In this document: positions 1,845-44,111 of the stretch, one piece after another | How positions within the stretch are numbered: the stretch's first letter is position 1 | How the letters are laid out: every line of letters begins with the position of its first letter | Source: Prolixibacteraceae bacterium | GTDB taxonomy: Bacteria > Bacteroidota > Bacteroidia > Bacteroidales > Prolixibacteraceae | DNA length: 64,000 nucleotides | Reading direction: 5' to 3' | Assembly: GCA_019459485.1 (NCBI GenBank) | Contig: JAIBEZ010000028.1 | Location: 62,001 to 126,000, forward strand | The notes under the pieces: model-generated | What the model saw: the letters and a program-made list of their open reading frames with translations, nothing else | What the model was told of the DNA's origin: nothing | Database searches by the model: none | Program-made: the position numbers and the translations under genes

Positions 1845-1913
1845 CAAAGTTAAAAACTGCCGTCGAAATAAGAATTACACAACTTTTTATTTTAATTACA
1901 ACATTCACACATT
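1845..1913 (-). promoter_or_regulatory. Regulon promoter site 1 (M48 protease/YihY)
   Basis: Read on the minus strand: box 1 AATGTGTGAATGTTGTAA, then box 2 ending in TTGTGTAA with the TGTAA cores 21 bp apart, then a perfect -7 element TAACTTTG (1845-1852) starting 30 nt after the first T of TTGTGTAA. The start codon at 1801 leaves a leader of about 40 nt. This is one of the best-matching copies of the 15-member set. Confidence 0.85.
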
Positions 1914-1930
1914 GATTGTTCAAATTAATG

Positions 1931-2713
1931 CTATTCGATCATCATTGGGTTAACTAAATTTTCATAATCAATAAGCTTGAGGTGTATTTTTCCAACAATG
2001 CGGATATCCATTTCAATCATAACCGGAACGTAATTGCCATCGTCGGTAACCCAGATGCTCACATCGTTTGGCGTTTTAAACATTCGCCCAACTTCAACCA
2101 CAGGCGAAATTCTGAGGCATTTGATCTTTCCGAATTTGGTCCTGATGGTCTCCTTTCCTTTATATCTCAGATAAAATGGGAATATTTCGTCGGAAAAATA
2201 GATGTTCACAAAAATCACTTCGTTTTCTTTCACTTTCGAAAAATCTATCCTTCGGATGTAATAAAGTGATGTGGCCAAATCGAGAATTTTCTCCGGAACT
2301 TTGTGCACTCCGGAAAGCTTCGAATTTACAGTGTTGTTTTTGCGGTTGTAGGTAACCTCGTTGTATTTGGTGTAGTTGCCTTCTTTGATATCGCGTATTT
2401 GTTTGTAAGAAAGGTTTGTTTCCTTATCGAACCAACTTTGGTAAACATCATTTACCCCATAAATAACTTCGGCCATTCCGGTTGTTTTACCGGTAGCTAC
2501 CGCATGAAAAACCGCTTTGTCTTCGTAAATATCATTGGTGAGCGAAAGTGTGGTAATTCCGCCTACAATAATTCCGTACCTGATTTGATAGGTGAGTTTT
2601 TCACCAGCCTTAAATGCGGTGTTTGGTTTGATGGATGGATTAACAAATGGTTGTGCATTCACTAACAATGTGCTAATCAAAAGTATAATCAGAATATTGG
2701 TGCAAAGTTTCAT
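1931..2713 (-). CDS. DUF3108 domain protein, exported
   Basis: The 260-residue product has a cleavable signal peptide (hydrophobic residues 6-20, cut after VNA) followed by a DUF3108 domain, recognised from the AGEKLTYQIRYGIIVGG opening and the alternating beta-strand pattern to the end. Biochemical function of DUF3108 is unknown. Members are periplasmic and often near envelope genes. Its apparent promoter (2960-3028) is 250 bp upstream, with a repeat array (2731-2935) in the leader between promoter and gene. No second promoter is obvious. Confidence 0.85.
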   Translation of the reverse strand: MKLCTNILIILLISTLLVNAQPFVNPSIKPNTAFKAGEKLTYQIRYGIIVGGITTLSLTNDIYEDKAVFHAVATGKTTGMAEVIYGVNDVYQSWFDKETNLSYKQIRDIKEGNYTKYNEVTYNRKNNTVNSKLSGVHKVPEKILDLATSLYYIRRIDFSKVKENEVIFVNIYFSDEIFPFYLRYKGKETIRTKFGKIKCLRISPVVEVGRMFKTPNDVSIWVTDDGNYVPVMIEMDIRIVGKIHLKLIDYENLVNPMMIE

Positions 2714-2730
2714 TTCAAAAATATATTTTT

Positions 2731-2935
2731 GTGAATATCCGAAATATTACCCAGTGTCATAAAAGTAGTTCCCTAAGTGTGCCGAAGGGCATTCAATTGT
2801 CATTTGGTTGTCATTCAATTGTCATTTGGTTGTCATTTGGTTGTCATTAAGTTGCGAGTAAATGGCTACTTAATGACAATAAATGACCACAACTGACTGA
2901 GTCAAATTGCTAAATAGATATGAAAATGGACAATC
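2731..2935. repeat. Phased 11-bp array, family A copy 1
   Basis: Positions 2791-2900 divide exactly into ten consecutive 11-bp units. The first five (ATTCAATTGTC or ATTTGGTTGTC) read TTGTC; after a centre near 2850 the later units read the complementary AATGACA. A perfect 12-bp arm pair (TTGTCATTAAGT / ACTTAATGACAA) spans the centre. The array is flanked by a conserved head (ATATCCGAAATATTACCCA-like plus a CCGAAGGGC piece) and tail (CAACTGACTGA ... GACAATCA). Related copies are at 8053-8195, 8458-8610 and 28791-28950, with a partial at 13250-13330. It lies in the leader of the DUF3108 gene. Confidence 0.85.
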
Positions 2936-2959
2936 ATAAATACTTCAAACTTCATAGGT

Positions 2960-3028
2960 CAAAGGTGGGTCTAAAAAAAACTGGAAGTGTTACACAATTG
3001 CAGACGGGAGTTGCATTATTCACACCTT
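2960..3028 (-). promoter_or_regulatory. Regulon promoter site 2 (upstream of DUF3108)
   Basis: Minus strand: box 1 AAGGTGTGAATAATGCAA, box 2 CAATTGTGTAAC, cores 21 bp apart, and a -7 element CACCTTTG at 2960-2967, 30 nt from TTGTGTAA. The upstream box overlaps the stop codon of the AraC-family gene at 3020. The transcript would cross repeat array A1 before reaching the DUF3108 gene at 2713. Confidence 0.8.
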
Positions 3029-3580
3029 TTCGAGTGGAATGCGTTTTTTTACCCTCAGGTTTTTGTAGTGAGAGGGAGTTAATCCGGTTATTTTTTTGAA
3101 TTGGTTCGACAGATGGGCAACACTGCTGTAATGAAGCCTGTAAGCTATTTCTGTGATATTGAGTTCGCCGTATATCAGCAATTCTTTTACCCGTTCAATT
3201 TTGTGGTGCAGAAAATAATGTTCAATGGTGGTTCCCTGATGTTCCGAAAAGAGATTGGCCAGATAGGTGTAGTCGTAATTTAGTTTTCCGCTCAGATAGT
3301 CAGAGAAATTTACCTTGATCTGATCTTCTGAATAATGAACCAATTCAATAATAACGTTTTTTATTTTTTCGACCAACATGCTTTTTTTGTCTTCGATCAA
3401 AGAAAGTCCCGATTTTTTCAGGCTGAAATCCAGCAGGGTTATTTTTTCAGGGGGGGTGTCATCGGCAATTTCTGCTACGCCCAATTTTATGGATGCATAA
3501 TGCAGTCCAAGCTTCTCAAGTTCTGATTTTACAATCAGTTTGCAGCGATTACTAACCATATTTTTGATGTGGAGCTCCAT
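3020..3580 (-). CDS. Short AraC-family regulator with ferredoxin-like N-domain (AraC 1)
   Basis: The C-terminal half (about residues 90-180) is an AraC-type double helix-turn-helix, with the second helix region SSVAHLSNQFKKITGLTPSHY. The N-terminal 70 residues resemble a degenerate heavy-metal-associated beta-alpha-beta fold: MELHIKNMVSNRC, a helix, a strand, then SGLSLIEDKKS. Only one cysteine of the usual CxxC remains. It is a close paralogue of the regulator at 43437-44009 (shared MVSNRC, LNYDYTYLANLFSE and SSVAHLSNQFKK). It follows a PAS protein and a CheB/CheR/PAS sensor on the same strand, so the three may form one unit. It is a candidate activator for the window-wide promoter set (inference). 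Confidence 0.9.
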   Translation of the reverse strand: MELHIKNMVSNRCKLIVKSELEKLGLHYASIKLGVAEIADDTPPEKITLLDFSLKKSGLSLIEDKKSMLVEKIKNVIIELVHYSEDQIKVNFSDYLSGKLNYDYTYLANLFSEHQGTTIEHYFLHHKIERVKELLIYGELNITEIAYRLHYSSVAHLSNQFKKITGLTPSHYKNLRVKKRIPLEKV

Positions 3581-3751
3581 GCTGCGTAATATTAAACTTT
3601 TAATTCTTAAATTATCCGGTTTGTGAAACCGGTTTGTTACCTGCTGATTTACAGATTAAACAGAGTAACGTCAGGGCATTGTACCTCATTTTAATGGCAA
3701 AGGTTACTTTTGATACAATCTTTTGAAATAAATTAAATATTGTGCTACCAA

Positions 3752-4315: not shown

Positions 4316-4321
4316 GTTTTC

Positions 4322-8613: not shown

Positions 8614-9153
8614 TCATAACTGCTGGCTAGCCGCCTGATTGTAAACTACTCGCAGATGGTTGTCAGAAGTTAACTCAGGACTGGATAAAAACAGCCTGAT
8701 CTGATGGGCCGATTTCCGTTGTTTCTCCAATATTCCTGCTAAAAAAACGGCAGTTTCCATGCTTTTTAGTTTATCTGAAATTGGTGGTATTTCATGTTCA
8801 ATAGTGTCGATAATTGCTTCGTGATCTCTTAAAAGCGTACCGAGAATTTGCGCAGAATTGCCAAAGTTATGATTGTCTTCGCCCATTTGTGAAACACTCA
8901 GGAAATCTTTGAGCGATCCCAATGCAAAATGTCCGAGCGATCTGATTTGTTCCGCCAGATCATCAATGATTACGTCCAGTAAATTGTATTGGTGTTCCAG
9001 GAAAACATGCAGTTCAAAGTAGTTTGAACCATCAACATTCCAGTGTGCAGTTCTGGTTTTTGTATATAGCACATATTCATCAGCCAGCAGAAGATTGAGA
9101 AAAGTAACGACAACTTCGTTGTTTTGGTCTGGAATTTCGTTTACTGGTTTCAT
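8614..9153 (-). CDS. dps: Dps-family ferritin-like DNA/iron protection protein
   Basis: The 179-residue four-helix-bundle protein keeps the Dps inter-subunit ferroxidase residues: His37 (TAHWNV), His49, Asp64 and Glu68. Their spacing (12, 15, 4) is exactly that of the E. coli residues His51, His63, Asp78 and Glu82. Dps proteins form dodecamers that oxidise Fe(II) with peroxide and protect DNA in stationary phase and oxidative stress. Promoter site 3 lies directly upstream (9195-9263), leaving a leader of about 37 nt, so this is a single-gene member of the regulon. Confidence 0.94.
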   Translation of the reverse strand: MKPVNEIPDQNNEVVVTFLNLLLADEYVLYTKTRTAHWNVDGSNYFELHVFLEHQYNLLDVIIDDLAEQIRSLGHFALGSLKDFLSVSQMGEDNHNFGNSAQILGTLLRDHEAIIDTIEHEIPPISDKLKSMETAVFLAGILEKQRKSAHQIRLFLSSPELTSDNHLRVVYNQAASQQL

Positions 9154-9194: not shown

Positions 9195-9263
9195 TAAATA
9201 TACAGCGATGCACCGACCCATTGCTTACACAATTTTTGGAAAAAATTACATAATTCACACATT
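9195..9263 (-). promoter_or_regulatory. Regulon promoter site 3 (dps)
   Basis: Minus strand: box 1 AATGTGTGAATTATGTAA, box 2 AAATTGTGTAAG, cores 21 bp apart, then -7 element TATATTTA (9195-9202) at the 30-nt offset. This is close to the consensus. It fits in the spacer between dps and the end of AraC 2 at 9270. Confidence 0.87.
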
Positions 9264-9269: not shown

Positions 9270-9773
9270 TCAGCCTGCACTGGTTTTTCGAAGTAGTCTG
9301 TAAAAAGCCGTAGATACACCGGTTTGCTTAATAAACTTGTTTTCTAATTGCGATACACTACGAAATTGTAATTTACGGGCAATCACAAACAGATCGGTTT
9401 CGTCGTAAAACAGTATTTCTTTAACGAGTTCAATTTTCTGGTTACTGATATATTTTTTAATTGAAATGCCCGTGATGCTTACAAAAAGTTTGTTCAGATA
9501 GGAATAGTCGCGGTTGAGTTTACTACTGATATAGTTTGAAGTTTTCTGATCCGGAAGTTTATCAGAAAGATAAATTAACTGATGAACAGCGGTTTTAATT
9601 TCTCCAATCAGCATATATAACTCATTATCTAACTGATCTGCAGGTGAAATTTGTATGTTATCATATGAAATTTTTTCTTCTGATTCTACTTTAAGAAATT
9701 CTGTAATTTCACCATTGTGTTCCTGATTATTTCGCCTGCTCATTTCGATTGTTATTTGGATCTCGTTTTTCAT
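9270..9773 (-). CDS. Short AraC-family regulator (AraC 2)
   Basis: The 167-residue protein ends in an AraC-type double HTH (about 75-165: LNRDYSYLNKLFVSITGISIKKYI ... SQLENKFIKQTGV is the recognisable core, in two pieces). Unlike AraC 1 and AraC 3, its N-terminal 50 residues show no ferredoxin-like domain. It begins 58 bp after the hybrid kinase gene and is probably co-transcribed with it from site 4. It is divergent from the other two AraC proteins and may recognise the same or another DNA box. Confidence 0.85.
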   Translation of the reverse strand: MKNEIQITIEMSRRNNQEHNGEITEFLKVESEEKISYDNIQISPADQLDNELYMLIGEIKTAVHQLIYLSDKLPDQKTSNYISSKLNRDYSYLNKLFVSITGISIKKYISNQKIELVKEILFYDETDLFVIARKLQFRSVSQLENKFIKQTGVSTAFYRLLRKTSAG

Positions 9774-9831: not shown

Positions 9832-11526
9832 TCAAATACGAATCAAGGTTAGGTAATTGTTTAATACCTCCATGAGGAGGGTGCTGTCGATAGGTTTTGT
9901 AATATAATTATCAAAACCACCTTTAATGGCTCTTTTTCTGCTGTCGCTGTTTGCATAAGCCGTTTGAGCAATTACCGGAAGATCCGGTTCAATTTGTTTT
10001 ATAAGCTGCAATGCTTCATGCCCATCCATTTCAGGCATTTTAAGATCCATTAAAACCAATGAAATTTCAGGATGGTTTTTTACCAGTTCTACGGCTTGCT
10101 TTCCATCCCATGCATCAAGTGTATTTGCATTTGTATCTGAAAGCAGTTCTTTAATATAGGTGTGGTTATTTACTTCATCTTCAACAATTAGAATGGTTTT
10201 ATCTTCCCAATTATAGTTGTCTGTTTCATAAGGTTTTTCCACAGTACCAACTATTTCAGTTTCGTAGGGAATTGTAAATGCAAAATTTGAACCTATTCCA
10301 GATTTCGAATTTACGCCAATTGTTCCACCAAGCTTTTCAACCAATGCTTTTGCAATGGCCAATCCTAATCCATTGCCTTCATTTAAGTGACTGTTGGCTG
10401 CTTTCACCTGCCTGAAACGATTAAAAATAAGTGACAGGTTTTCAGGTGCTATGCCCATACCGGTATCACTAACATAAAATTCAATGAAATTTTCCTGAAT
10501 AGTATATCCAAAGCTGATTTTACCTTCTTTTGTAAATTTGATGGCATTGTTCAATAAATTACAGATCACCTGTCTGATTCTGTTCCCATCTGTTTTAACC
10601 TGAATAAGTTTATTGGGATGAGTAAGCTGGCAGATTAATTTTACTTTCTTTAAATCGACCAAATGAGTATAAGTAACGCATAATTCGTCCATTAACTTAT
10701 TGATGTTAACTAATTCAGATTCAATAGATAGCAGACCAGATTCTATTTTCGAAATGTCAATTATATCGTTTATAACTGATAAAAGCTGCTTGCTGCTGGT
10801 ATTGATAATATTGACGTACTTCTCAAGTTTATCTTTGGACAATTCTGGTTGTAAAAGAAATTCTGAAAATCCGATTATTGCGTTCATGGGTGTCCTGATT
10901 TCGTGGCTCATATTGGCCAGAAATGCAGATTTAAGCTGATCCGACTCTTCCGCCTTATTTTTTGCCAAAATCAAATCATTGTTGATCTGCTGAATTTGAT
11001 CAATTCTTTCCTTTAATTCAAAATCAGCTTTAACTCTTTGAGTAATATCTCTGATATTGCATTGAATTACTTTTATTTTGCCAACCGGATATACGTTGCA
11101 AATAAACTCTACATCTGTAATGTTTCCATTCCGTTTCTGAATGGGCATGTCTTCAAATCGGAGATAGCCAGTCGTTTGAAGCTCAATAAAGTCAAGTTCT
11201 GCTTCTTCCTTATTGCTGAAAAGTCCGATTTCCCAAAGTTTTTTTTGTAGTATTTCATCCAAGGGCAAATCAATCATTTTAACTATGTATGGATTTGCAT
11301 CAACTATATTGCCGGTTTCGAAATCCAGAATAAGAATTCCGTCTTTGGCCGATTCGAACAAACGGCGATACCGCATCTCCGATTCTATCAGCTTTTCATC
11401 AGGCAGTACATCTTCATTTTTGTCAATTGTACTTTGTGTCCTGAATTCTTCCGGAGAATTTTTCTTTGTTATGTCTGTTTTTGAAAGTAATTTTTTCATC
11501 CCACCAATTTTAATTTGTTGAAGCAC
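9832..11526 (-). CDS. Hybrid histidine kinase (PAS-HisKA-HATPase-REC)
   Basis: Domains in order: PAS (about 48-165), short coiled coil (165-195), HisKA with phospho-acceptor His208 (SHEIRTPMNA), HATPase (about 305-422, DTGMGIA and GNGLGLA), and a C-terminal receiver with Asp494 (VLMDLKMPEMDG). No transmembrane segment is seen, so the sensor is cytoplasmic. The start may be ATG 11526 or the internal ATG at 11499. Promoter site 4 is about 90-120 bp upstream. AraC 2 follows at 58 bp, so kinase and regulator are probably one operon. Confidence 0.93.
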   Translation of the reverse strand: MLQQIKIGGMKKLLSKTDITKKNSPEEFRTQSTIDKNEDVLPDEKLIESEMRYRRLFESAKDGILILDFETGNIVDANPYIVKMIDLPLDEILQKKLWEIGLFSNKEEAELDFIELQTTGYLRFEDMPIQKRNGNITDVEFICNVYPVGKIKVIQCNIRDITQRVKADFELKERIDQIQQINNDLILAKNKAEESDQLKSAFLANMSHEIRTPMNAIIGFSEFLLQPELSKDKLEKYVNIINTSSKQLLSVINDIIDISKIESGLLSIESELVNINKLMDELCVTYTHLVDLKKVKLICQLTHPNKLIQVKTDGNRIRQVICNLLNNAIKFTKEGKISFGYTIQENFIEFYVSDTGMGIAPENLSLIFNRFRQVKAANSHLNEGNGLGLAIAKALVEKLGGTIGVNSKSGIGSNFAFTIPYETEIVGTVEKPYETDNYNWEDKTILIVEDEVNNHTYIKELLSDTNANTLDAWDGKQAVELVKNHPEISLVLMDLKMPEMDGHEALQLIKQIEPDLPVIAQTAYANSDSRKRAIKGGFDNYITKPIDSTLLMEVLNNYLTLIRI

Positions 11527-11617: not shown

Positions 11618-11685
11618 CAAATTTATTGGTATGACATAGGAAAAAATTACAGAATTCATGTTCATATTTACATGATTCTCACATT
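11618..11685 (-). promoter_or_regulatory. Regulon promoter site 4 (hybrid kinase/AraC 2), weaker
   Basis: Minus strand: box 1 AATGTGAGAATCATGTAA, box 2 GAATTCTGTAAT, cores 21 bp apart. A -7 element TAAATTTG lies at 11618-11625, one base closer than in most sites (offset 29). The two mismatches are GTGAGAAT in box 1 and TTCTGTAA in box 2. Confidence 0.65.
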
Positions 11686-11943
11686 TTTGGAATTAAAAAC
11701 CGGAGGTGGTTCATCTATTCGGGTTGGGTCGTTAATTTCTGGTTCCTTTATACCCGGGGCAGGGATGGCGGGTTCCGGATTTATTTCCGGCTTCGAAGGA
11801 GGAGTCACTGGTTTGTCCGGACGCGGAATTCTCGGCCTTTTTGCCGGATTTTCTCTTTCCTTTCCAGTTAAAGGTTGTTTTGAATTCCTTTCAGATTGCT
11901 GTTTGCGTAGGTTGTTTTTGTCTTTGTTCATCTTTATTTGCAT
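11668..11943 (-). CDS. Small proline-rich basic/disordered protein
   Basis: The 91-residue product has no hydrophobic segment. It starts with a basic, Asn/Lys-rich region and continues with proline-rich repeats (PRIPRPDKPVTPPSKPEI, PAIPAPGIKEPEI), so it should be intrinsically disordered. No function is recognised. It has its own regulon promoter (11960-12028) ending about 17 bp before the ATG; Met5 (11931) is an alternative start. Its 3' end overlaps promoter site 4 of the kinase gene. Confidence 0.65.
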   Translation of the reverse strand: MQIKMNKDKNNLRKQQSERNSKQPLTGKERENPAKRPRIPRPDKPVTPPSKPEINPEPAIPAPGIKEPEINDPTRIDEPPPVFNSKNVRIM

Positions 11944-11959: not shown

Positions 11960-12028
11960 TAAAAGTGAGTCCTTTCACAGAGAAAAGTTTTATATAATTT
12001 CTGAAATAAGTTGTATCATTCACACATT
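11960..12028 (-). promoter_or_regulatory. Regulon promoter site 5 (proline-rich protein)
   Basis: Minus strand: box 1 AATGTGTGAATGATACAA, box 2 GAAATTATATAA (two mismatches to TTGTGTAA), cores 21 bp apart, -7 element CACTTTTA at 11960-11967 at the 30-nt offset. It sits directly behind the stop codon of the glycosidase at 12032. Confidence 0.7.
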
Positions 12029-15948: not shown

Positions 15949-17445
15949 TTATTTACTGTTCGTGTTGCTTATTCCATATACAGTTCTGAAATGATAACCA
16001 TATACAGCAAAAATCAATGCGTCTTTTAACAATGCCGGTCGCCTGAAAAGTGTCCAGATCAATAGTTTCCAGTATTCGCTCCGACCCTTGTTTACAATGC
16101 CGATAACGTAAAGCGACTTGAAAAAACTGACCAGATACGAAAATTCCATTTTCTTTTTCCGCTTGTTGATTTGCCTGTAGTTTAGCAGAAACTGGCGTAT
16201 CCGTTTGTAATATGGCTTTGTTGCATAAATATTCTGAATGATACTTTTGTATCCGTTTAAAAGTTCCTGAGAATTCATCACCGGAACAAAATTCATCGAC
16301 GAATCGGTATTGTTTCCTGAAGATTCGGATGTCAGCCGGTTTTCAGCTTTTAGCCGGTTGTACAGTACTGTATTCTTTGGAGCATTTAACAATCCGACCA
16401 TTGCCGAAACAATTCCGCTCTGTTGTATAAAGTCAATTTGTTTCTGAAAAACAGAGGGAGTGTCCGAGTCGAAACCAACAATAAATCCGCCCGAAACCTG
16501 CAATCCTGAGTTTTGTATCTTTTTTACGCTGAGCAGCAGGTCTCTGTTTTTATTTTGACTCTTGTTACATTCCTGAAGCGATGTTTCGTCGGGCGTTTCG
16601 ATGCCGACAAATGTGGAGGTAAAACTCGTTTCGGCCATTAACAGCATTAACTCTTCATCGTCGGCAAGGTTTATCGAGGACTGAATATTGAATGTAAACG
16701 GATATTTGTGCAGTTTCATCCAACTCTTCATTGCCGGGAGCAGATTGTATTTTACTTCTTTCTTGTTCCCTATAAAATTATCGTCCACAATAAGTATCGG
16801 GCCGCGCCAGTTCAAATTGTAAAGTACTTCAAGCTCCTGAATAATCTGACTTGTATTTTTCATTCTGACTTTGTGCCCCAACAGTGATGTGATTTCGCAA
16901 AAGTCGCAGGCGAATGGGCATCCGCGTGAAACCTGAATGTTCATGGTTACATAGTCCTTCAGCGACAACAAATTGTAATCGGGTAGGGGAGTCAATGTAA
17001 TATCTGCGTGTTGATCGGTTTTGTAAACTCTTTCCGGAGTTAAACCAGCATTTAAATCCTTCAGGAACAAAGGCATCGTAATTTCTGCTTCATTCAAAAT
17101 GAAATGGTCGATTTGCGGATATTTTTCGTATTCATGGGTGAAAAGCGGACCGCCGGCAATAATTTTAACTTCATACTTCAGGCAAAGGTCAATGATTTTG
17201 ACAACCGATTCCTGCTGAATGTGCATTGCGCTGATAAAAACATAATCGGCCCAAAGAAAGGCGTCCGGTTGAAGCGCTGAAACATTCATGTCAATCAGTT
17301 TTTTGTTCCAGTTTTTAGGGAGCATTGCCGAAACGGTTATTAAGCCAAGTGGTGGCACTGTTGCTTTCTTTGAGATAAATCTCATTATGTTTTTGAAACT
17401 CCAAAAAGAATCGGGGTATTGCGGATATACTAATAATACGTTCAT
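15949..17445 (-). CDS. B12-binding radical SAM protein (DUF4070 type)
   Basis: An N-terminal B12-binding Rossmann domain (MNVLLVYPQYP, about 1-145) is followed by a radical SAM core with the [4Fe-4S] ligands Cys176, Cys180 and Cys183 (SRGCPFACDFC) and a C-terminal helical region like DUF4070. Family members include the hopanoid C-2 methylase HpnP and related methylases or cyclases. Substrate is unknown here. The reading frame is open to 17532, but the regulon promoter at 17469-17537 lies inside that extension, so the start is ATG 17445 (or 17457). It heads an operon with the eRF1-like and PIG-L genes. Confidence 0.88.
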   Translation of the reverse strand: MNVLLVYPQYPDSFWSFKNIMRFISKKATVPPLGLITVSAMLPKNWNKKLIDMNVSALQPDAFLWADYVFISAMHIQQESVVKIIDLCLKYEVKIIAGGPLFTHEYEKYPQIDHFILNEAEITMPLFLKDLNAGLTPERVYKTDQHADITLTPLPDYNLLSLKDYVTMNIQVSRGCPFACDFCEITSLLGHKVRMKNTSQIIQELEVLYNLNWRGPILIVDDNFIGNKKEVKYNLLPAMKSWMKLHKYPFTFNIQSSINLADDEELMLLMAETSFTSTFVGIETPDETSLQECNKSQNKNRDLLLSVKKIQNSGLQVSGGFIVGFDSDTPSVFQKQIDFIQQSGIVSAMVGLLNAPKNTVLYNRLKAENRLTSESSGNNTDSSMNFVPVMNSQELLNGYKSIIQNIYATKPYYKRIRQFLLNYRQINKRKKKMEFSYLVSFFKSLYVIGIVNKGRSEYWKLLIWTLFRRPALLKDALIFAVYGYHFRTVYGISNTNSK

Positions 17446-17468
17446 CACACATTTCATTAAGAATACCC

Positions 17469-17537
17469 TAAAGGTAAATGTGGAGGTAAAAAAAAGTATT
17501 ACACAATTTCCGGGAAAAATTATAAGATTCACACATT
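17469..17537 (-). promoter_or_regulatory. Regulon promoter site 6 (radical SAM operon)
   Basis: Minus strand: box 1 AATGTGTGAATCTTATAA, box 2 GAAATTGTGTAAT, cores 21 bp apart, -7 element TACCTTTA at 17469-17476, exactly 30 nt from TTGTGTAA. Transcription would begin near 17464, ruling out an upstream start at 17532. Confidence 0.85.
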
Positions 17538-17602: not shown

Positions 17603-18124
17603 TTAAATATTTCTGATTTTTGAAATGTCAAATTCTTTACGGTCATAAAACTGTTTGCCGGATGATGTACTCTCTTCCACTGTATGATCTCCGGTAAAAT
17701 GTCGCAGTACATTTAATTCGTATCCAAAATCAATGATATCTCCTTTTTTGAATCGTTGGGCCTGTGCGAATGTTGAACTGTTAATATGGTTGGTGGTTAC
17801 TCTTTTATTATTTCCATCTAAATTTGCCATTCCAATCGGGATGATCAGGTGATTGGCTCCCTCCTTGTTTATAAACTGATGAACACCCTCACTTACAGGT
17901 AGCTGAAAAGTGTTGTGGCCGTCTTCTATCAATGAATTATCTATTTCAACATCCAGGTAAACAACGCGTTCTGCTTCTTTGTTAACAAGCAAATGATCCA
18001 CCACCCCAATGGTCCGGCTGTCGGCATCAATAACTTCCCAGCCCCTTACATCACTATAATCGGAGGCTACTTTGTAATCGGGCAGCTCATACAGGTAATA
18101 GAGATTTTTTTTGATATCAGACAT
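17603..18124 (-). CDS. PRC-barrel domain protein
   Basis: The 173-residue soluble protein has an N-terminal PRC-barrel (about 20-95, VRGWEVIDADSRTIGVVDHLLVNKE is its core and lies at residues 27-51) and a short charged C-terminus. PRC-barrels bind proteins or nucleotides and occur in photosynthetic reaction-centre subunit H and in many general-stress proteins. It follows the 192-residue protein gene by 24 bp and shares promoter site 7. Confidence 0.85.
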   Translation of the reverse strand: MSDIKKNLYYLYELPDYKVASDYSDVRGWEVIDADSRTIGVVDHLLVNKEAERVVYLDVEIDNSLIEDGHNTFQLPVSEGVHQFINKEGANHLIIPIGMANLDGNNKRVTTNHINSSTFAQAQRFKKGDIIDFGYELNVLRHFTGDHTVEESTSSGKQFYDRKEFDISKIRNI

Positions 18125-18778: not shown

Positions 18779-18847
18779 CAAAAATAGGCATAGATGTCCG
18801 TTCAGCAGTTGCATTTTTTTTGAAAAGAATTGTAATATTCACACATT
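18779..18847 (-). promoter_or_regulatory. Regulon promoter site 7 (membrane protein/PRC-barrel)
   Basis: Minus strand: box 1 AATGTGTGAATATTACAA is strong; box 2 (AAAAAATGCAAC) is poor but in the correct place; the -7 element TATTTTTG at 18779-18786 is at the 30-nt offset. The gene starts at 18727, about 50 bp on. Confidence 0.7.
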
Positions 18848-23203: not shown

Positions 23204-23272
23204 TAAAAATATTAATTTGTGGGTTCTGCCTTGTTACACAATTCTGAGAACAATTTACATGATTGTCACATT
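23204..23272 (-). promoter_or_regulatory. Regulon promoter site 8 (small anchored protein)
   Basis: Minus strand: box 1 AATGTGACAATCATGTAA, box 2 AGAATTGTGTAAC, cores 21 bp apart, -7 element TATTTTTA (23204-23211) at the 30-nt offset. The leader is about 26 nt to ATG 23173. Confidence 0.84.
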
Positions 23273-28274: not shown

Positions 28275-28343
28275 CAAAGGTGAGGATATGGTGACTGTAA
28301 AGCGTTACACAATTCCGTAAAAAAGTTACATCTTTCACAGACT
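28275..28343 (-). promoter_or_regulatory. Regulon promoter site 9 (CsbD 1 operon)
   Basis: Minus strand: box 1 AGTCTGTGAAAGATGTAA, box 2 GGAATTGTGTAAC, cores 21 bp apart, -7 element CACCTTTG (28275-28282) at the 30-nt offset. Predicted transcription start about 28270. It sets the CsbD 1 start codon at 28238. Confidence 0.84.
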
Positions 28344-28467: not shown

Positions 28468-28653
28468 TTAAAGTGATGCTGTGATTTTCTTCAGCTTTTC
28501 CTTTGTTTGGCCAAGTCCGGCCTGATGTTTTCCGAACATCTCCTCTTTTTTTCCTTCAGCAAATAACTGGTCGTTATTTACCAAACCTGCAAATTTTTGT
28601 TTGAGTCTGCCTTTCTGCTCGGTCAAATTTCCTTTTGCTTCAGTAGCGTTCAT
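28468..28653 (-). CDS. CsbD-family stress protein 2
   Basis: This protein of about 61 residues is a clear CsbD member: MNATEAKGNLTEQKGRLKQK start, LVNNDQLFAEGKKEE middle and GQTKEKLKK end. The frame is open to 28695, but the -7 box of site 10 overlaps there, so the start is ATG 28653. It is a separate transcription unit from CsbD 1, with which it shares the overall pattern but not close identity. Confidence 0.9.
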   Translation of the reverse strand: MNATEAKGNLTEQKGRLKQKFAGLVNNDQLFAEGKKEEMFGKHQAGLGQTKEKLKKITASL

Positions 28654-28692: not shown

Positions 28693-28761
28693 CAAATTTG
28701 AGACTCAAACGTCAGCAAAACGTTATACAATTTTTGGAAATAATTACATCTTTCACACATT
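28693..28761 (-). promoter_or_regulatory. Regulon promoter site 10 (CsbD 2)
   Basis: Minus strand: box 1 AATGTGTGAAAGATGTAA, box 2 AAATTGTATAAC, cores 21 bp apart, -7 element CAAATTTG (28693-28700) at the 30-nt offset. An extra box 1 in opposite orientation lies next to it at 28771-28788. Confidence 0.85.
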
Positions 28762-31630: not shown

Positions 31631-31966
31631 TTAGAGTAAAAGGATTAATAATAATACGATAAGAATTGCAGCACCAACCGAAATATATACACCACCGCCG
31701 CTATTTGCTGCGTTGTTTGCTTTAATGTCGGTTTTAATTGCGCGAACTTCTTTGCGTAATTCTTTCTTTTCAGCTGAATTCATGGTCTTCATGTCCATCG
31801 CTTTGATTTCATTTAACCTGAGTTCCATCTTAACTACCTCTGCTGAGGCAACAGTTGCAGTTACAGTAGTTGCAGCAGTTGTGGTTTCAGTTTCTGCTTT
31901 CAATAAAGTTGGATTACATAATAGCAACATGCATCCAGTCATTAAGCCAAGAGTTAATTTTTTCAT
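31631..31966 (-). CDS. Small exported protein with C-terminal membrane anchor (paralogue 2)
   Basis: The 111-residue product has a signal peptide (ending about LKA), a Thr/Ala/Val-rich stretch, the family core IKAMDMKTMNSAEKKELRKE and a C-terminal anchor (YISVGAAILIVLLLILLL). It is the paralogue of 22859-23173. Function is unknown. It heads the five-gene mini-membrane-protein operon with promoter site 11 directly upstream. Confidence 0.8.
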   Translation of the reverse strand: MKKLTLGLMTGCMLLLCNPTLLKAETETTTAATTVTATVASAEVVKMELRLNEIKAMDMKTMNSAEKKELRKEVRAIKTDIKANNAANSGGGVYISVGAAILIVLLLILLL

Positions 31967-32004: not shown

Positions 32005-32073
32005 CAAAGATCCGCATTGGTAACATGATAAGCGTTACACAATTCCGAAGAAAAGTTACATCATTCACACCTT
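32005..32073 (-). promoter_or_regulatory. Regulon promoter site 11 (mini-membrane-protein operon)
   Basis: Minus strand: box 1 AAGGTGTGAATGATGTAA, box 2 GGAATTGTGTAAC, cores 21 bp apart, -7 element GATCTTTG (32005-32012) at the 30-nt offset. The leader to ATG 31966 is about 35 nt. Confidence 0.85.
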
Positions 32074-35927: not shown

Positions 35928-37868
35928 TTATTGCAAGCTTTTCTGAGACTGATCACTGCGACTGAACACTTCCTCGTTCGGGATGCTGAAGAAAAACGTG
36001 GCTCCATTTCCAACTTCACTTTCAGCCCAGCATTTTCCGCCGTGCCTCACCACAATTCTATTCACATTGGCCAGTCCAATTCCAACTCCTTCGAAATCAG
36101 TTGATTTGTGCATTCGTTGAAATACTCCAAATAGTTTATCAGCATATTTCATATCAAATCCGGCACCGTTGTCGCTGATGGAAAAAACTGTTTTATCGTC
36201 CACTATTTCGCTTCCAATGGTGATCGTTGCTTTTTCCTTGTTTTTTGAATATTTCAGAGCGTTGGATATCAGGTTCTCCCAAACCTGGTGAATCAACGTT
36301 TCATCACCAATTGCATCAGGAAGTTCAGCTACATTTATTTCGACATCGCGCCCTGCTGTTTCATCGCCGAAACTTTTCAGAACCTGTGCCACCATGTTTT
36401 GCGAGTTGATTTTTGTTTTCTGAAGTTCGGTACGGCTTAACCTGGAGAAAGTCAGCAACGCATCTATCAGGCTGCCCATTTCATGTGACGACTCTGAAAT
36501 TATTTTCAAATATCTTATGCCTTTTTCGTCGAGTTGACTGGAATTGTTTTTAATCAGCAAGTCAACAAATCCGCCGATATGTCTCAATGGGGCACGTAAA
36601 TCATGCGACACAGAATAGCTGAATGCTTCAAGCTCTTTATTTGCAGCTTCCTGTTTTTCTTTTTCTTCGTTCTGAAAAACAAGTTCTTGGTTCACGATGA
36701 CAAATTCAGCTGCCCGTTTCCCTTTTTCTTCGTTTTGGAAGGCAAGTTCTTTGTCGGCAATAATCAGTTCTGCCGCGCGTTTTTCTTTTTCCTGATTTTG
36801 AAATATCAGTTCTTTGTAAGCAATGATCAACTCTTCTGCGCGTTTTTCTTTTTCTTCGTTTTGAAAAACAAGTTCCTCATTGGCAAGGATCAATTCAGCT
36901 GCCCGTTTCCCTTTTTCATTGTTTTGAAATACAAGTTCTTCGTTTGCTATAATTAACTCTTTTGCGCGTTTCCCTTTCTCCTTGTTTTGAAATACAAGTT
37001 CCTCGTTTGCAACGATTAGTTCAGCTGCACGTTTTCCCTTTTCCTTGTTCTGAAATGCCAGTTCGTCGTTTGCGATAACTAACTCTTCTGCCCGTTTGCC
37101 TTTTTCTTCGTTTTGAAAAGCAAGTTCTTTGTTTGCAACGATCAATTCTGCAGCCCGGTTTTCTTTCTCAGTATTTTGAAAGGCAAGTTCCTTATTGGCA
37201 ACGATTAACTCTGCTGCTCTTTTTTCTCTCTTTTCATTTTGCTGCAAATTTTTGCCTGTAACAATTAATAATAGTATTGTAATCACGGAAATCAGAACAA
37301 ACATAATTCTCGAGATCCAGTTGAATGCTGTCATGCTATACTCGTTCGCCTGCTGAAGTTGTTTGAGGTTCGTATCCTCTTGTTGTTCAATTTCAGCGAT
37401 TATCTGGCGCAAATTGTCGGAATAATACAAACCCTGATTGGTTGAAGCATAAGCAATTGCGGCCAGTAGTCCCTGACTGCTCCTTAGTTCGGCCTGCTTC
37501 AACGAAAAAGCCAGACGCTTTTGCATGTAATAGTGAATTGAATCAACACGCTGTTGCTGGGTAGCATTGTCCTTAAATTGTTGCCTGAGTTGCCCGATGT
37601 TATTGAAAATGATTTTTTCTGCAGTAAATAAGGGTTCAAGAAATGCACTGTCGTTTGTGATTATAAAACCCCTTGAAGCTGATTCGATGTCTTTGCCAAG
37701 TAAAAGTATATTGCCCAGATTTGAAATGATATCCTCTGTATGTTGCACCAATTGTTCCGTTTTGATACGCTTTTGGCTGGTGATATATACAGCAAAACCT
37801 ATAAACAGATTACCTGCCAAAATTATAAATGCGAAGATTATAAGCTTTTGACGGATACTCGTTTTCAT
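35928..37868 (-). CDS. Membrane histidine kinase (CHASE3-like) with long coiled-coil repeats
   Basis: The 646-residue protein has two transmembrane segments (about 9-29 and 184-204) enclosing a helical extracytoplasmic domain like CHASE3, then eight full and two partial 21-residue units (about 208-409), HisKA with His422 (SVSHDLRAPLRH) and an HATPase domain (DNGAGFD). It is the only membrane-bound sensor of this cluster. Promoter site 12 is directly upstream, leaving a leader of about 20 nt. It heads the unit down to 32092. Confidence 0.93.
   Translation of the reverse strand: MKTSIRQKLIIFAFIILAGNLFIGFAVYITSQKRIKTEQLVQHTEDIISNLGNILLLGKDIESASRGFIITNDSAFLEPLFTAEKIIFNNIGQLRQQFKDNATQQQRVDSIHYYMQKRLAFSLKQAELRSSQGLLAAIAYASTNQGLYYSDNLRQIIAEIEQQEDTNLKQLQQANEYSMTAFNWISRIMFVLISVITILLLIVTGKNLQQNEKREKRAAELIVANKELAFQNTEKENRAAELIVANKELAFQNEEKGKRAEELVIANDELAFQNKEKGKRAAELIVANEELVFQNKEKGKRAKELIIANEELVFQNNEKGKRAAELILANEELVFQNEEKEKRAEELIIAYKELIFQNQEKEKRAAELIIADKELAFQNEEKGKRAAEFVIVNQELVFQNEEKEKQEAANKELEAFSYSVSHDLRAPLRHIGGFVDLLIKNNSSQLDEKGIRYLKIISESSHEMGSLIDALLTFSRLSRTELQKTKINSQNMVAQVLKSFGDETAGRDVEINVAELPDAIGDETLIHQVWENLISNALKYSKNKEKATITIGSEIVDDKTVFSISDNGAGFDMKYADKLFGVFQRMHKSTDFEGVGIGLANVNRIVVRHGGKCWAESEVGNGATFFFSIPNEEVFSRSDQSQKSLQ
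36642..37247 (-). repeat. 63-bp tandem repeat, eight full units plus partial ends
   Basis: Units of type NEELVFQNEEKGKRAAELII run from about 37247 to 36642. Variants with NDEL, NEEL and KGKR distinguish this array from those in the other kinases, although the framework F-Q-N---K-KRA-EL is kept. Confidence 0.92.
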
Positions 37869-37891: not shown

Positions 37892-37960
37892 TAAAGATGC
37901 GCCTCTTTTTTTAGTTCCTTATTACACAATATTTGAAATAACTTACATTATTCACACATG
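37892..37960 (-). promoter_or_regulatory. Regulon promoter site 12 (kinase/receiver operon)
   Basis: Minus strand: box 1 CATGTGTGAATAATGTAA, box 2 ATATTGTGTAAT, cores 21 bp apart, -7 element CATCTTTA (37892-37899) at the 30-nt offset. It could drive all genes from 37868 to 32092. Confidence 0.85.
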
Positions 37961-37971: not shown

Positions 37972-38403
37972 TTACATGCGTTCCATGTACCAGTTTAGTT
38001 GCTTTTCCATTTTTTTTAAACGGAAAATGGCGGGGATAATCTTGCCCAATCGAAAAAACGCGGTTTCGCTTTTAACTACATAATCAAAAGCTTTGTGATG
38101 CATACAATTTATTGCCACCTCAATTTTATCCTGTGACGACAGCATTACCACCGGAATTTTTGAACTGTAAGCTTTAATTTTATCAAGAATGTCGATTCCG
38201 TTCATCGCTTTTTTATCAATTCCGTTTAGTTCATAATCCAGAATTATTATATCAGGCGAATGTTCAATGTTCTTTAAGCAAAGTTCACCTGTAGCATAAG
38301 TTTCAATCTCAAAATCGCCATGCTCAAGAAATTCAATTTCCAGTAATTTTAAATATACAGCATCATCATCCACCAGGAATATTTTGATCTTTTCTTTGTT
38401 CAT
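37972..38403 (-). CDS. Single-domain response regulator (paralogue A)
   Basis: The 143-residue receiver has the acidic pocket VDDD, phospho-acceptor Asp in IILDYELNGID and lysine in YVVKSE. A C-terminal helix (AIFRLKKMEKQLNWYMERM) extends past the domain. About four fifths of its residues match the receiver at 39649-40083. The two genes flank the ice-binding-type gene. It has its own promoter, site 13. Confidence 0.92.
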   Translation of the reverse strand: MNKEKIKIFLVDDDAVYLKLLEIEFLEHGDFEIETYATGELCLKNIEHSPDIIILDYELNGIDKKAMNGIDILDKIKAYSSKIPVVMLSSQDKIEVAINCMHHKAFDYVVKSETAFFRLGKIIPAIFRLKKMEKQLNWYMERM

Positions 38404-38462: not shown

Positions 38463-38531
38463 CAAAAGTGCAACCCTTTGTAAAGAAAAATATTACACAA
38501 TTTCATGAATCTATTGTATATTTCACACATT
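38463..38531 (-). promoter_or_regulatory. Regulon promoter site 13 (receiver A)
   Basis: Minus strand: box 1 AATGTGTGAAATATACAA, box 2 GAAATTGTGTAAT, cores 21 bp apart, -7 element CACTTTTG (38463-38470) at the 30-nt offset. The leader to 38403 is about 55 nt. Confidence 0.84.
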
Positions 38532-38540
38532 CTATGAAAT

Positions 38541-38576: not shown

Positions 38577-38595
38577 AGATGCAAATTTATGATGA

Positions 38596-39426
38596 CTATT
38601 TTGGTTGTTTAACGGCATTCATTTGAAGCGTTACTGCAGTTTGTGCCAGCATTCTTCCATTTATTGATGCGCCTGTCTTCAGGTTAATACCTGTTTGGCT
38701 CAATATGATTCCTTCAAAATGGCTGGTTGTGCCAATGGTAACTGCACCTGAAGATACCCAGAAAATATTTTTGGCAAGTGCTCCGCCTTCTAAGATCATG
38801 TTTACAGCCGAACTCATATTCAACGTGCCGGCAACCTGAAAAATCCATACATCAGTCGGGCTACCCGAAATAGTAATATCAGTCGGGATAACAATTGCAC
38901 TTGTCCATTTGTACAGACCTGGAGTAAGCGTTTTGCCGCCAATATTTCCGGCGCCTAAATTCAGAAAATCAGGGTTTACACGTCCTGCGGCATCAGTGTA
39001 GGCAGCCTGCATGTTGAGAACTGCAATTCCTAATCTGGTAGCGCTGGTAATTTTGCATGCTGGACCGGCAGCATCAACTGAATATATATTTCCTGTAACT
39101 TCGTCACAACTTAAAACCATTGCGGCACCGGTAATCGGACTTGTACCAATATCTCCGGTAATATTAGATTTATACACACTTGTAACTCCTGTTTTTGACA
39201 AAATTGCAAATTCTCCTGCAATTCCAAGATCTACTCCTTTTAAAGTCCCTTCTTGTGGCAAAATTGCTGATGAATTCAAATCTGAAGAATTTGCTGATGA
39301 CATTGCTGATGAATTTGTGATTGAAGTCACATTTTGATCATAAGCGTTGTCGTCGCTTTTGCTACATCCGGTAATTAATCCAACCAATAGCATGGCCATG
39401 ATTGGCATTACTTTTATTAGGTTCAT
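38596..39426 (-). CDS. DUF3494 ice-binding-type lipoprotein
   Basis: The product of about 276 residues is a lipoprotein (lipobox LITGC, Cys21) with a DUF3494 beta-helix domain: FAILSKTGVTSVYKSNITGD start, GAAMVLSC and TDVWIFQVAGTLNMSS strands. The DUF3494 fold includes proven ice-binding/antifreeze proteins, though adhesion-related roles also occur. The frame is open to ATG 39459, but a weak regulon site's -7 box overlaps there and ATG 39426 gives a normal lipoprotein signal. Confidence 0.85.
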   Translation of the reverse strand: MNLIKVMPIMAMLLVGLITGCSKSDDNAYDQNVTSITNSSAMSSANSSDLNSSAILPQEGTLKGVDLGIAGEFAILSKTGVTSVYKSNITGDIGTSPITGAAMVLSCDEVTGNIYSVDAAGPACKITSATRLGIAVLNMQAAYTDAAGRVNPDFLNLGAGNIGGKTLTPGLYKWTSAIVIPTDITISGSPTDVWIFQVAGTLNMSSAVNMILEGGALAKNIFWVSSGAVTIGTTSHFEGIILSQTGINLKTGASINGRMLAQTAVTLQMNAVKQPK

Positions 39427-39463
39427 TCTTTTGTTTATTATTGGTGACAGTGTCGTCACGAAT

Positions 39464-39531
39464 CAAAGGTGAGGTCATAATGCCCGGGAAAGTTGCAAAG
39501 TTCTGTTGGAAACTTGCAAAATTCACTGATT
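39464..39531 (-). promoter_or_regulatory. Possible weak regulon promoter site 15 (DUF3494 gene)
   Basis: Minus strand: box 1 AATCAGTGAATTTTGCAA, box 2 GAACTTTGCAAC, cores 21 bp apart, -7 element CACCTTTG (39464-39471) with offset 29. Several mismatches (TTTGCAA for TGTGTAA) make it the weakest member; spacing is what supports it. Confidence 0.5.
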
Positions 39532-39559
39532 ATGGCTCTATTTTCATCGGTTTGAACAT

Positions 39560-39607: not shown

Positions 39608-39648
39608 AACAGAAATTTGCTGTAAACAATGGAAACTAAAATCAGTGT

Positions 39649-43000: not shown

Positions 43001-43405
43001 AAGTTCTTTGTTGGCAGCCTGCAATTCCATTGCCCATTTTTGCCTGGCGATATCTCTTGCTACTACCACAGCACCAATTACAACTCCTTTGGTATCCATA
43101 TAAACCGATCCGTTGAACAGCACATCGGTTAATTTTCCATCTTTACCTGTGAATGTAAGCGGATAGTCTGTAAGCGATCCATTTTCAAAGACTTTCAAAT
43201 AACCTTCCCGTGCTTTTTGAGGCTCGGTAAAATAGTCGTAGAAATTTGTTCCGATTAGTTTTTTGCGTGTCAGACCGGTAATATTTACCTCCGCCTGATT
43301 CATGTCTGTAATTTTACCATCTACGCTGATCGTAATTAAAGGATCCAGACTGGCTTCCATTAAACTGCTGGCATATTGAGAATCGTTCGCGATTGTTCTT
43401 TCCAT
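40076..43405 (-). CDS. Hybrid histidine kinase (PAS, 21-residue repeats, PAS-PAS, HisKA-HATPase-REC-HPt)
   Basis: The 1109-residue cytoplasmic kinase contains, in order: PAS 1 (about 10-125), eight full and one partial 21-residue units (132-316), PAS 2 and PAS 3 (about 325-560), a helical linker, HisKA (SHEIRTPMNA), HATPase (DTGIGIS, GGTGLGLA), a receiver (ILMDLQMPEMNG) and a C-terminal HPt domain (AVHKM). PAS 2 and PAS 3 share long identical stretches (FTEPQKAR, VYQEVFA), so one is a recent duplication. The start is ATG 43405, 32 bp after AraC 3. Phosphate could pass through REC and HPt to receiver B. Confidence 0.94.
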   Translation of the reverse strand: MERTIANDSQYASSLMEASLDPLITISVDGKITDMNQAEVNITGLTRKKLIGTNFYDYFTEPQKAREGYLKVFENGSLTDYPLTFTGKDGKLTDVLFNGSVYMDTKGVVIGAVVVARDIARQKWAMELQAANKELAFQNNEKEKRADELIIANKELAFQNKEKEKRAAELIVANKELAFQNDEKGKRADELSIANKELIFQNKEKEKRAAELILANKELIYQNEEKEKRAAELILANEELVFQNEEKEKRAAELIIADKELIFQNEEKEKRAAELIIADKELIFQNEEKEKRAAELIIADKELLFQNEEKEKRSVENKELEASSFSLKLASQYSLSLIEASRDPLVVISTTGKITDMNEALVKITGVSREELIDTDFLDYFTEPQKARKVYQEVFANGSGADSPLTLRHVNGKLTDVLFNGSVYKDDKGNVLGVVIVARDVTAQKLLSKYSLSLIEASLDPLITISNEGKITDMNEALVNITGMTREEITGTDFLDYFTEPQKAREVYQEVFAKGSVANSPLILRHKDGKLTDVLFNGSVYKDDRGNVLGIVIVARDVTEQKRISTELTEAIVFAELAVGIAEEAKFKAEKATLLAENAVKAKQQFLSNMSHEIRTPMNAIIGFTKVMLKTELTAKQKEYLQAIKMSGDALIVLINDILDLAKVDAGKMTFEQTPFKLSLSIAAMLHLFETKIWEKNLVLVKEYDRRIPEVLVGDPVRLHQIILNLVSNAVKFTNKGKITVSVNLLKEDENEVTIEFAVTDTGIGISTDKMENIFENFQQATSGTSRIYGGTGLGLAIVKQLVESQGGKIQVNSKVDEGSTFSLALKFQKTNEMLESEPEIAELDKKISNIKVLVAEDIALNQLLMRTLLDDFGFDCDIAANGKIAIEKLKANKYDIILMDLQMPEMNGFEATEYIRHEMNCDIPIIALTADVTTVDLAKCKYVGIDDYIPKPVDERLLYSKIISSVKKNAHIKNNGIEYDVDSDIENEKCTDLEYLTKRTKSNPKLMMEMISAYLEQTPPLVSAMKQSFHDKDWDLLYSAVHKMIPSFSIMGISEDFENMAKKVQEFASTQKQTEGISDMVLQLENVCGQACEELVIEFNTIKTKTND
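42458..43012 (-). repeat. 63-bp tandem repeat, eight full units plus one partial
   Basis: Units of type NKELAFQNKEKEKRAAELIV pass into almost identical DKELIFQNEEKEKRAAELII copies toward the 3' end. The last three copies are nearly identical, which indicates recent duplication or gene conversion. Confidence 0.93.
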
Positions 43406-43436
43406 TTTATTTACTCCGTAATGCCTTTTGTATCTT

Positions 43437-44009
43437 TTAATTATTATTGCCAACCTCGTCAATCGGGCTTCGTTTTTTTTCTTTCAGTTGTTTAAAATGA
43501 GAAGGGGAGAGTCCTGTCATTTTTTTAAATTGGTTCGACAGGTGCGCAACACTGCTGTAATTCATTTTCCAGGCAATTTCAGTAATGGTTAGTTCTCCGT
43601 AAATAATCAATTCTTTTATCTTCTCAATTTTATGCGATATAATGAATTGCTCAATGGTAGTACCTTGAACTTCAGAGAATAAATTAGCCAGATAAGTGTA
43701 ATCATAGTTTAATTTTTCGCTTAAAAAAATGGAAAAATTTGTTTTAATTACTTCATTCGAATGATGGACCATCTCAATAATTGTGTTCTTTATTCTTTCA
43801 ACCAATACAGAACGTTTATCGTCCATTAGTTCAAATCCGGAGTTGAGCAATCCAATTTTCAACTCTTCCCGAACCTCCTCAGAGATATTCTCCATAATCT
43901 CAACTTCTCCTAAATCAACCAGCATGTAGTGCAGCCCAAGCTTTTTCAACTCTTCTTTCACCGCTACTTTGCAACGGTTGCTGACCATGTATTTAATGTA
44001 TAATTTCAA
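43437..44009 (-). CDS. Short AraC-family regulator with ferredoxin-like N-domain (AraC 3)
   Basis: This paralogue of AraC 1 keeps the same degenerate HMA-like N-domain (LYIKYMVSNRC, GLHYMLVDLGEVEI) and AraC-type double HTH (SSVAHLSNQFKKMTGLSPSHF). The frame opens at TTG 44045, but the -7 box of site 14 overlaps there. By alignment with AraC 1 (MELHIKNMVSNRC) the best start is TTG 44009; ATG 43988 is the alternative. It heads an operon with the hybrid kinase and receiver B. The site before it suggests autoregulation. Confidence 0.88.
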   Translation of the reverse strand: MKLYIKYMVSNRCKVAVKEELKKLGLHYMLVDLGEVEIMENISEEVREELKIGLLNSGFELMDDKRSVLVERIKNTIIEMVHHSNEVIKTNFSIFLSEKLNYDYTYLANLFSEVQGTTIEQFIISHKIEKIKELIIYGELTITEIAWKMNYSSVAHLSNQFKKMTGLSPSHFKQLKEKKRSPIDEVGNNN

Positions 44010-44042
44010 TTGATTTTGTTTTTTTTTTAAGTTGAGTATTTG

Positions 44043-44111
44043 CAAAGATGTATAACTTAAACCACAAATGCATTATACTTCTTCATATATAAATTGCATA
44101 ATTCACATGTT
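44043..44111 (-). promoter_or_regulatory. Regulon promoter site 14 (AraC 3 operon)
   Basis: Minus strand: box 1 ACATGTGAATTATGCAA (shorter match), box 2 GAAGAAGTATAAT (poor), cores 21 bp apart, -7 element CATCTTTG (44043-44050) at the 30-nt offset. It lies in the 450-bp divergent spacer up to the DUF5686 gene at 44462; the remainder of that spacer is AT-rich, with a TATTTTTG -7 box at 44426-44433 for the plus-strand gene. Confidence 0.62.

Follow-up and report, generated by a model that had tools for sequence, protein, structure and literature searches.

Paired boxes on a common promoter design define a putative stress regulon in a Prolixibacteraceae genome and point to an HMA-like AraC protein as its likely regulator

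We analysed a window of 64,000 nt from a Prolixibacteraceae bacterium (contig JAIBEZ010000028.1, here C17; the window is C17:62001-126000 of a 5.53 Mb genome in 114 contigs), in which an initial annotation had recognised fifteen minus-strand copies of one promoter architecture and read them as a stress regulon extending over 42 kb. The case that this shared promoter design defines a regulon is well supported by site statistics, by the position of the sites relative to genes and by conservation in other genomes, and the gene content supports its reading as a stress regulon. The likely regulator is an AraC-type protein of about 190 amino acids, belonging to a family represented in the window by the proteins P0003 and P0001. 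Judged from sequence, it is probable that such an HMA-like AraC protein drives an autoregulated stress regulon via paired half-sites on housekeeping-sigma promoters. The initial annotation had counted an AraC gene among the targets, which holds, and had named no regulator; the evidence now points to the HMA-like AraC proteins, including the product of that very gene.

Results

A fixed two-box promoter architecture

All 15 reported positions carry both boxes, 21 bp apart, with leave-one-out scores of 17.9-47.8 bits for a 42-column two-box matrix, against a maximum of 9.8 bits in 40 first-order Markov sequences of 64 kb each. The four copies weakest relative to the consensus are those at 39464 (17.9), 11618 (24.4), 44043 (25.4) and 18779 (29.5 bits). 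A scan of both strands of the window at a threshold of 8 bits produced no further sites and none at all on the plus strand, in agreement with the earlier remark that the plus-strand housekeeping genes lack the element. The half-site is RAATNRTGTAA, present as a direct repeat with a 21 bp period, and the upstream half-site carries an extra TGTGTG. Downstream lies a -7 element, A..TT(T/A)(G/A), whose reported spacing was reproduced by the offset check: 30 nt (offset 62) in 13 of the copies and 29 nt (offset 61) in the two at 11618 and 39464. An open reading frame (ORF) in the same direction starts 4-246 nt past the -7 element in every case, as expected if each copy precedes a gene or operon. When 37 sites are aligned, one A and one T of the -7 region are invariant and, by eye, a -33 TTTG is not conserved at the expected place.

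The same architecture recurs across the genome and in other genomes. A pattern search of the source genome allowing at most three mismatches gave 36 matches and none in a reversed control, while a sequence-only model gave 52 matches at E<=0.004, of which 37 are there by construction because the model was built on 37 sites (15 from the window and 22 others). The copies and the promoter design thus stand as first described, but 42 kb understates their extent: C17:17.6-106 kb holds 28 of the 52 matches, and the remaining 24 are spread over 12 different contigs.

For other genomes we used 80 named loci, chosen by protein similarity to P0003 or P0001 and not by motif (the best 80 of 467, and so no random sample). 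A boxes-only matrix, stripped of its -7 columns, found 220 sites at >=16 bits compared with a single one in the reversed control; at least one site was present in 70 of the 80 loci and at least two in 56. Among the 219 sites that could be checked, A..TT(T/A)(G/A) stood at offset 62 in 169 and at offset 61 in 33, both being possible for one site, and no offset outside 61-63 ever showed the element in more than seven; the leading T of the TAnnTTTG type is not conserved. Box 1 alone as the query returned 202 matches (two in the control), followed by box 2 at offset 27, the 21-bp spacing, in 120 instances, with other spacings at most one each barring box 1 self-matches. These self-matches, 57 at offset 6, arise where the box 2 matrix scores box 1 itself, which identifies the boxes as direct repeats 21 bp apart.

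With genes called by a simple longest-ORF rule, the sites prove not to be as frequent inside genes as upstream of them. Only 12 of the 220 fall within ORFs of 100 amino acids or more (85% of 4000 random positions do), and for 193 an ORF in the same direction starts at most 250 nt from the -7 element (14% at random), at a median distance of 35 nt for these. The corresponding figures for stretches of the source genome are one of 34 inside such an ORF and 26 of 34 with a start. Chance repeats are ruled out by the random-sequence and reversed controls.

An AraC-type candidate regulator

Gene position and co-occurrence both point to the P0003/P0001 family. The regulator gene is preceded by a site within 400 bp in 57 of the 80 named loci and in 0 of 80 in the reversed control. 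We then compared regulator and motif across genomes, using the model with its rough E-values; in searches over 40 genomes no more than 34 candidates per genome were scored in the family and 16 in the phylum, so that large counts are lower bounds. Of the 140 genomes in a family set, 57 have a close relative (E<=1e-64), 42 a mid relative (1e-64 to 1e-30) and 41 a farther one; the motif was present at E<=1e-8 in 56, 10 and 5 of them, respectively, the Spearman correlation between regulator similarity and motif being 0.85. Within genus g1, the 17 genomes with a close AraC protein have 15-34 motif matches and the six without it 0-3.

In a phylum sample of 296 genomes, a regulator-family member (E<=1e-30, a cut-off that also takes in a CxxC class, described below, with like sites of its own) was found in 64 of 65 genomes with the motif (E<=1e-3) versus 74 of 231 without it, an odds ratio of 136 (p 1e-24) by a statistic that ignores kinship. 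Where the relative reaches E<=1e-70, the motif is present in 12 of 14 genomes besides the source genome. A patchily distributed CheB-CheR protein from the window, used as a control, showed no such association (odds ratio 1.2, p 0.55).

Close relatives of P0003 occur in named records of Sunxiuqinia indica, a Mariniphaga metagenome-assembled genome (MAG), Prolixibacteraceae MAGs, many Flavobacterium, Emticicia aquatica and Arcticibacter svalbardensis, and in MAGs labelled Mucilaginibacter, Arcicella and Saprospiraceae. One further MAG record labelled Ca. Theseobacter exili (phylum Ca. Auribacterota) and one labelled Ignavibacteria also hold such a relative; transfer or misbinning might account for either. 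In at least eight family genomes (G003, G005, G008, G012, G014, G071, G079 and G083) a P0001-like and a P0003-like gene lie no more than 1 kb apart on the same strand, and adjoining genes of this kind may form a two-step cascade. A third AraC-like protein of the window, P0002, was set aside as regulator, being 28% identical to P0003 and without the Cys motif.

Domain structure and the SxxC and CxxC classes

Both candidates end in a double helix-turn-helix domain (HTH_18/HTH_AraC; PF12833 at 1.5e-17 in P0003 and 3.2e-18 in P0001). The AlphaFold2 model of P0003 (39 rows, pLDDT 86.7) has a beta-alpha-beta-beta-alpha-beta N-domain, a long helix at residues 77-94 and the AraC helices. The Foldseek matches of the C-domain were AraT, GadX, YesN, AraC, MarA and SoxS. 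Those of the N-domain were HAH1, MerP, Atx1 and a copper metallochaperone (1fee, 2qif, 1osd, 2xmv; TMt 0.64-0.73, E 0.06-0.08); in this the predicted N-domain resembles copper chaperones. Because Pfam does not call an HMA domain (PF00403) in P0003, this likeness rests on the fold match and on the place of the Cys motif. P0003 and P0001 are both SxxC proteins, the CxxC metal ligands being present in neither, and Cys25 is kept in all 79 rows with data.

Among 166 unique full-length proteins of the regulator family, most of them drawn by similarity to P0003 or P0001 and hence no random sample, 128 are SxxC, 37 CxxC and one other. The two classes differ in their surroundings. A site lies upstream of the gene in 74 of 120 SxxC cases and 2 of 37 CxxC cases; at the 3' end of the gene, a site of at least 10 bits is found in 24 of 127 and 17 of 36, respectively; and a CopA-like gene follows within 1.5 kb for none of 127 SxxC genes but for 16 of 36 CxxC genes. 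On a quick tree, unrooted and with long-branch warnings, the class labels require three changes versus a mean of 34.7 when shuffled. The P0003 clade comprises 127 SxxC rows and the one other row (support 93), while P0001 is placed, with weak support (56), beside three CxxC proteins with strong 3'-end sites and no CopA. The stress lineage probably arose from a CxxC metal-responsive regulator of CopA-type pumps or has a common ancestor with one; with no known root to the tree, CxxC can only be presumed to be the ancestral state.

In the source genome itself, on contig C16 (L215:1454-6535), a gene run containing a CxxC AraC gene and a CopA-type ATPase is preceded by a strong stress-type site (53.5), and a weaker like site (18.2) is found at the 3' end of that AraC gene. 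The SxxC and CxxC classes may thus be layered in one locus.

Target genes

The window targets are an M48 peptidase, DUF3108, Dps, a hybrid kinase, a radical SAM protein, a PRC-barrel pair, two CsbD-like proteins and a CHASE3 kinase, together with a receiver, an ice-binding-like protein, AraC and some proteins without a family (Table 1). In the source-genome stretches that were examined, 51 places score at least 15 bits, the 15 window sites included, and one has no ORF after it. Targets outside the window comprise a long catalase, a ferritin-like protein, Usp, OmpA, MlaE, DUF892, two baeRF proteins, a patatin and the N-terminus of a cation P-type ATPase, with some others lacking a Pfam match. 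Stress-type functions had been proposed from the peptidase, Dps, CsbD-like, kinase and receiver genes of the window, and the catalase, ferritin-like, Usp, DUF892 and baeRF genes found elsewhere extend the list.

Taking the 80 loci and the source-genome stretches together, a first ORF was found for 246 of 254 sites. The largest groups are the regulator (49, a count inflated because the loci were chosen for that gene), a group whose representative is ice-binding-like (34), the small CsbD-like proteins (20) and a group whose representative is of the OmpA/glycine-zipper type (15), and there are 30 singletons. The ice-binding-like group (PF11999; three members scanned), second in size, accounts for its 34 sites in 23 loci and includes the window gene at 38596-39459; its size suggests roles beyond ice. 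The small CsbD-like family, of 61-91 amino acids, takes its 20 sites from 17 loci and includes both window genes; two of three scanned members have no Pfam match and the third falls just under the CsbD cut-off. Divergent site pairs lie between opposite-strand genes at three places in the source genome: C17:49955-50170 (catalase), C17:59928-60210 (Usp and a DUF748-like gene) and C113:5746-5893 (CsbD-like and OmpA).

Table 1. Promoter sites and AraC-type genes of the window (positions as in the window)
Feature	Position	Strand	Description
Site 1	1845..1913	-	boxes and -7; target M48 peptidase 1001-1801
Site 2	2960..3028	-	overlaps the AraC gene 3020-3580 at its 3' end; the next gene found is DUF3108 1931-2713, beginning 246 nt away
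Site 3	9195..9263	-	target Dps/ferritin-like 8614-9153
Site 4	11618..11685	-	29-nt spacing; target hybrid histidine kinase-receiver 9832-11526
Site 5	11960..12028	-	target 91-aa protein 11668-11943
Site 6	17469..17537	-	target radical SAM/B12-binding protein 15949-17457
Site 7	18779..18847	-	target 192-aa protein 18149-18727, then PRC-barrel 17603-18124
Site 8	23204..23272	-	target 104-aa protein 22859-23173
Site 9	28275..28343	-	target small CsbD-like protein 28050-28238 (longer start 28277)
Site 10	28693..28761	-	target CsbD-like 28468-28653 (longer form to 28695); Pfam CsbD 39.7 bits, cut-off 40
Site 11	32005..32073	-	target 111-aa protein 31631-31966; small ORFs after
Site 12	37892..37960	-	target CHASE3 histidine kinase 35928-37868
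Site 13	38463..38531	-	target receiver protein 37972-38403
Site 14	39464..39531	-	29-nt spacing, weakest copy; target ice-binding-like protein 38596-39459
Site 15	44043..44111	-	target candidate regulator P0003 (putative autoregulation)
P0003, candidate regulator	43437..44045	-	HMA-like N-domain with MVSNRCK, helix 77-94, AraC helix-turn-helix; start likely nearer 44009, because the longer ORF overlaps site 15
P0001, second candidate regulator	3020..3580	-	62% identical to P0003; site 2 at 3' end
P0002, divergent AraC-like	9270..9773	-	28% identical to P0003, Cys motif absent

Two of the targets appear to head operons: the radical SAM gene behind site 6 would be joined by the minus-strand PIG-L, glycosyltransferase and GDE_C genes after it, and the CHASE3 kinase gene behind site 12 by a receiver and two receiver-kinase genes.

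Genomes and genes that do not fit

A number of observations weigh against the assignment of the regulon to this protein family. The N-domain fold matches have E-values of only 0.06-0.08. The co-occurrence tests, for family and phylum alike, take no account of phylogeny, and the target Dps is associated with the motif too (odds ratio 11.3, p 3e-6 in the phylum sample). The motif is present without a close regulator in the family genomes G030 (10 matches), G028, G049, G106 and G122, in which a profile re-search found only distant AraC proteins, and in the phylum genome G331, in which it found no regulator at E<=1e-5. Genomes G150 and G155 have nine and eight motif matches but only a CxxC-class regulator, a single such family protein being found in each on re-search. 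There are also regulators without the motif: the f24 genomes G282 and G290 have a relative at E<=1e-70 and no motif, and G107 has a close relative and only two weak matches. Furthermore, 23 of the 80 regulator genes have no scored upstream site, three of which (L158, L170 and L206) look degenerate by eye, and P0001 and P0003 may bind different sites.

Incomplete assemblies may explain some of these exceptions (G049 is 70%, G122 82%, and G106 and G028 85% complete) but do not account for G030 or G331, both 100% complete. G107 fits after all: its relative, which the profile re-search returned as well, is of the CxxC class and is followed by a CopA-like gene. Two further f24 genomes, G200 and G405, have a relative just above E<=1e-70 and are also without the motif, and three others (G310, G350 and G413) have one or two matches. 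For G088, which has weak motif matches and no relative, the profile re-search was empty at E<=1e-5. In G150 and G155 (L222 and L220; another family) a gene run opening with a Usp-like protein lies behind stress-type sites and encodes proteins that resemble, by their first residues, the PIG-L, glycosyltransferase and GDE_C proteins of the window; no SxxC regulator was found there.

Discussion

Class II activators of the AraC/MarA/SoxS type bind next to the core promoter and take the place of the -33-region element, and the 21-bp direct repeats match the araI spacing of AraC. We propose that each site is an activator-dependent Bacteroidota promoter for the housekeeping sigma factor, at which an AraC protein of the P0003/P0001 family would bind the two direct-repeat half-sites on one face of the DNA. 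In Flavobacterium psychrophilum a TAnnTTTG box was mapped at -12 to -5 (PMC9723704). If the -7 box lies likewise, box 1 would be at about -69 to -56 and box 2 at about -45 to -35, and the activator would occupy the place of the -33 element; it is this position of the boxes, with the missing -33 element, that argues for activation and not repression. The regulator would also activate its own gene. Its targets would protect DNA, protein, envelope and redox state, with signalling proteins among them. A similar site would let the CxxC relative control CopA-type pumps; in the stress lineage Ser replaces the first Cys and the second is kept. We infer binding, activation, signal and direction of evolution from what was computed, namely site architecture, position, genome-wide number, co-occurrence, the site before the regulator gene and the predicted domains.

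Beyond this, a copper-chaperone-like sensor joined to an AraC domain may have lost one ligand (CxxC to SxxC), multiplied its sites and become the master general stress regulator of many Bacteroidota, a scenario that we put forward tentatively and at somewhat less than even chances.

Other readings of the boxes were weighed. They could be bound by a different regulator: the kinases and receivers of the island might, for example, feed a response regulator of the LytTR or NarL type, the AraC gene then being a mere target. LytTR proteins too use direct repeats with a spacing of about 21 bp, the targets include kinase and receiver genes, and some motif genomes lack a close AraC relative. However, the window receiver proteins that were scanned contain no DNA-binding domain in Pfam, a like site lies next to the genes of the CxxC paralogues themselves, and co-occurrence is far tighter for the AraC family, the one DNA-binding family compared with the motif in this way, than for one target (Dps) or for the unrelated CheB-CheR protein; we therefore consider another binding protein unlikely. 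Recognition by an alternative sigma factor instead of an activator would agree with the fixed distances between all elements, but the -7 element belongs to the housekeeping type, A..TTTG, the boxes extend to about -69, and the SM4-SM6 motifs of F. psychrophilum, ascribed to alternative sigma factors, have other forms (PMC9723704). We regard this as very improbable, having set it aside on core element and distance only, with no search aimed at sigma factors made.

A further possibility leaves the AraC protein in place and changes its role: the SxxC protein would still sense metal, and the targets would be metal-toxicity genes of a copper regulon. The HMA-like fold of the N-domain, the retention of Cys25 throughout and the strong site before the C16 genes ending in CopA speak for it. 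On the other hand, the first Cys is Ser in 128 of 166 family proteins, including all P0003-clade rows but one, none of the 127 SxxC regulators adjoins a CopA-like gene, and the named targets are mostly catalase, Dps/ferritin, Usp, CsbD-like, ice-binding-like, MlaE and kinases, so that a copper regulon seems rather unlikely. The stress regulon under an HMA-like AraC activator remains the reading that we prefer.

To our knowledge, no general stress regulator is established for the Bacteroidota, a phylum without RpoS and SigB. The analysis supplies a candidate regulator, a site that predicts the regulon and a list of targets for stress control in this phylum, and it may present an example of a metal-responsive regulator that became global, with both kinds in one genome. 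If the master-regulator scenario is true, the protein would fill the role that sigmaB, RpoS or PhyR has elsewhere. The site can also be used to annotate genes of unknown function, for example the small CsbD-like family. The initial annotation knew of no described promoter of this form, and neither motif nor regulator was found described in the titles and abstract openings of the open-access literature searched, a part of the whole literature. That dozens of stress-type genes have one fixed promoter design in common, and that this design recurs in many relatives along with the small AraC-type protein, points to a stress-control circuit not described in the papers searched.

Comparison with known systems

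The promoter classes SM1-SM6 of F. psychrophilum share the -7 TAnnTTTG-type core, but the passages compared describe no paired TGTAA boxes, and the word AraC is absent from the main text of that paper (PMC9723704). The HMA copper chaperones (HAH1, Atx1, CopZ-type, MerP) have in common with P0003 the predicted beta-alpha-beta-beta-alpha-beta N-domain and a Cys motif in the first loop, but here the domain is fused to an AraC domain and the stress class is SxxC, not CxxC. With the class II AraC/XylS activators (AraC at araI1-I2, MarA and SoxS) the candidate regulator shares the double helix-turn-helix domain, and its sites the direct half-sites 21 bp apart, the proximal one next to the core promoter; it is set apart by the HMA-like N-domain, by dozens of sites in one genome and by the Bacteroidota -7 promoter. 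Finally, the target types Dps, catalase, CsbD, BON-type and Usp recall the regulons of sigmaB in Bacillus, RpoS in E. coli and PhyR-EcfG in Alphaproteobacteria, although here the evidence points to an activator acting on housekeeping-type promoters and not to a sigma factor.

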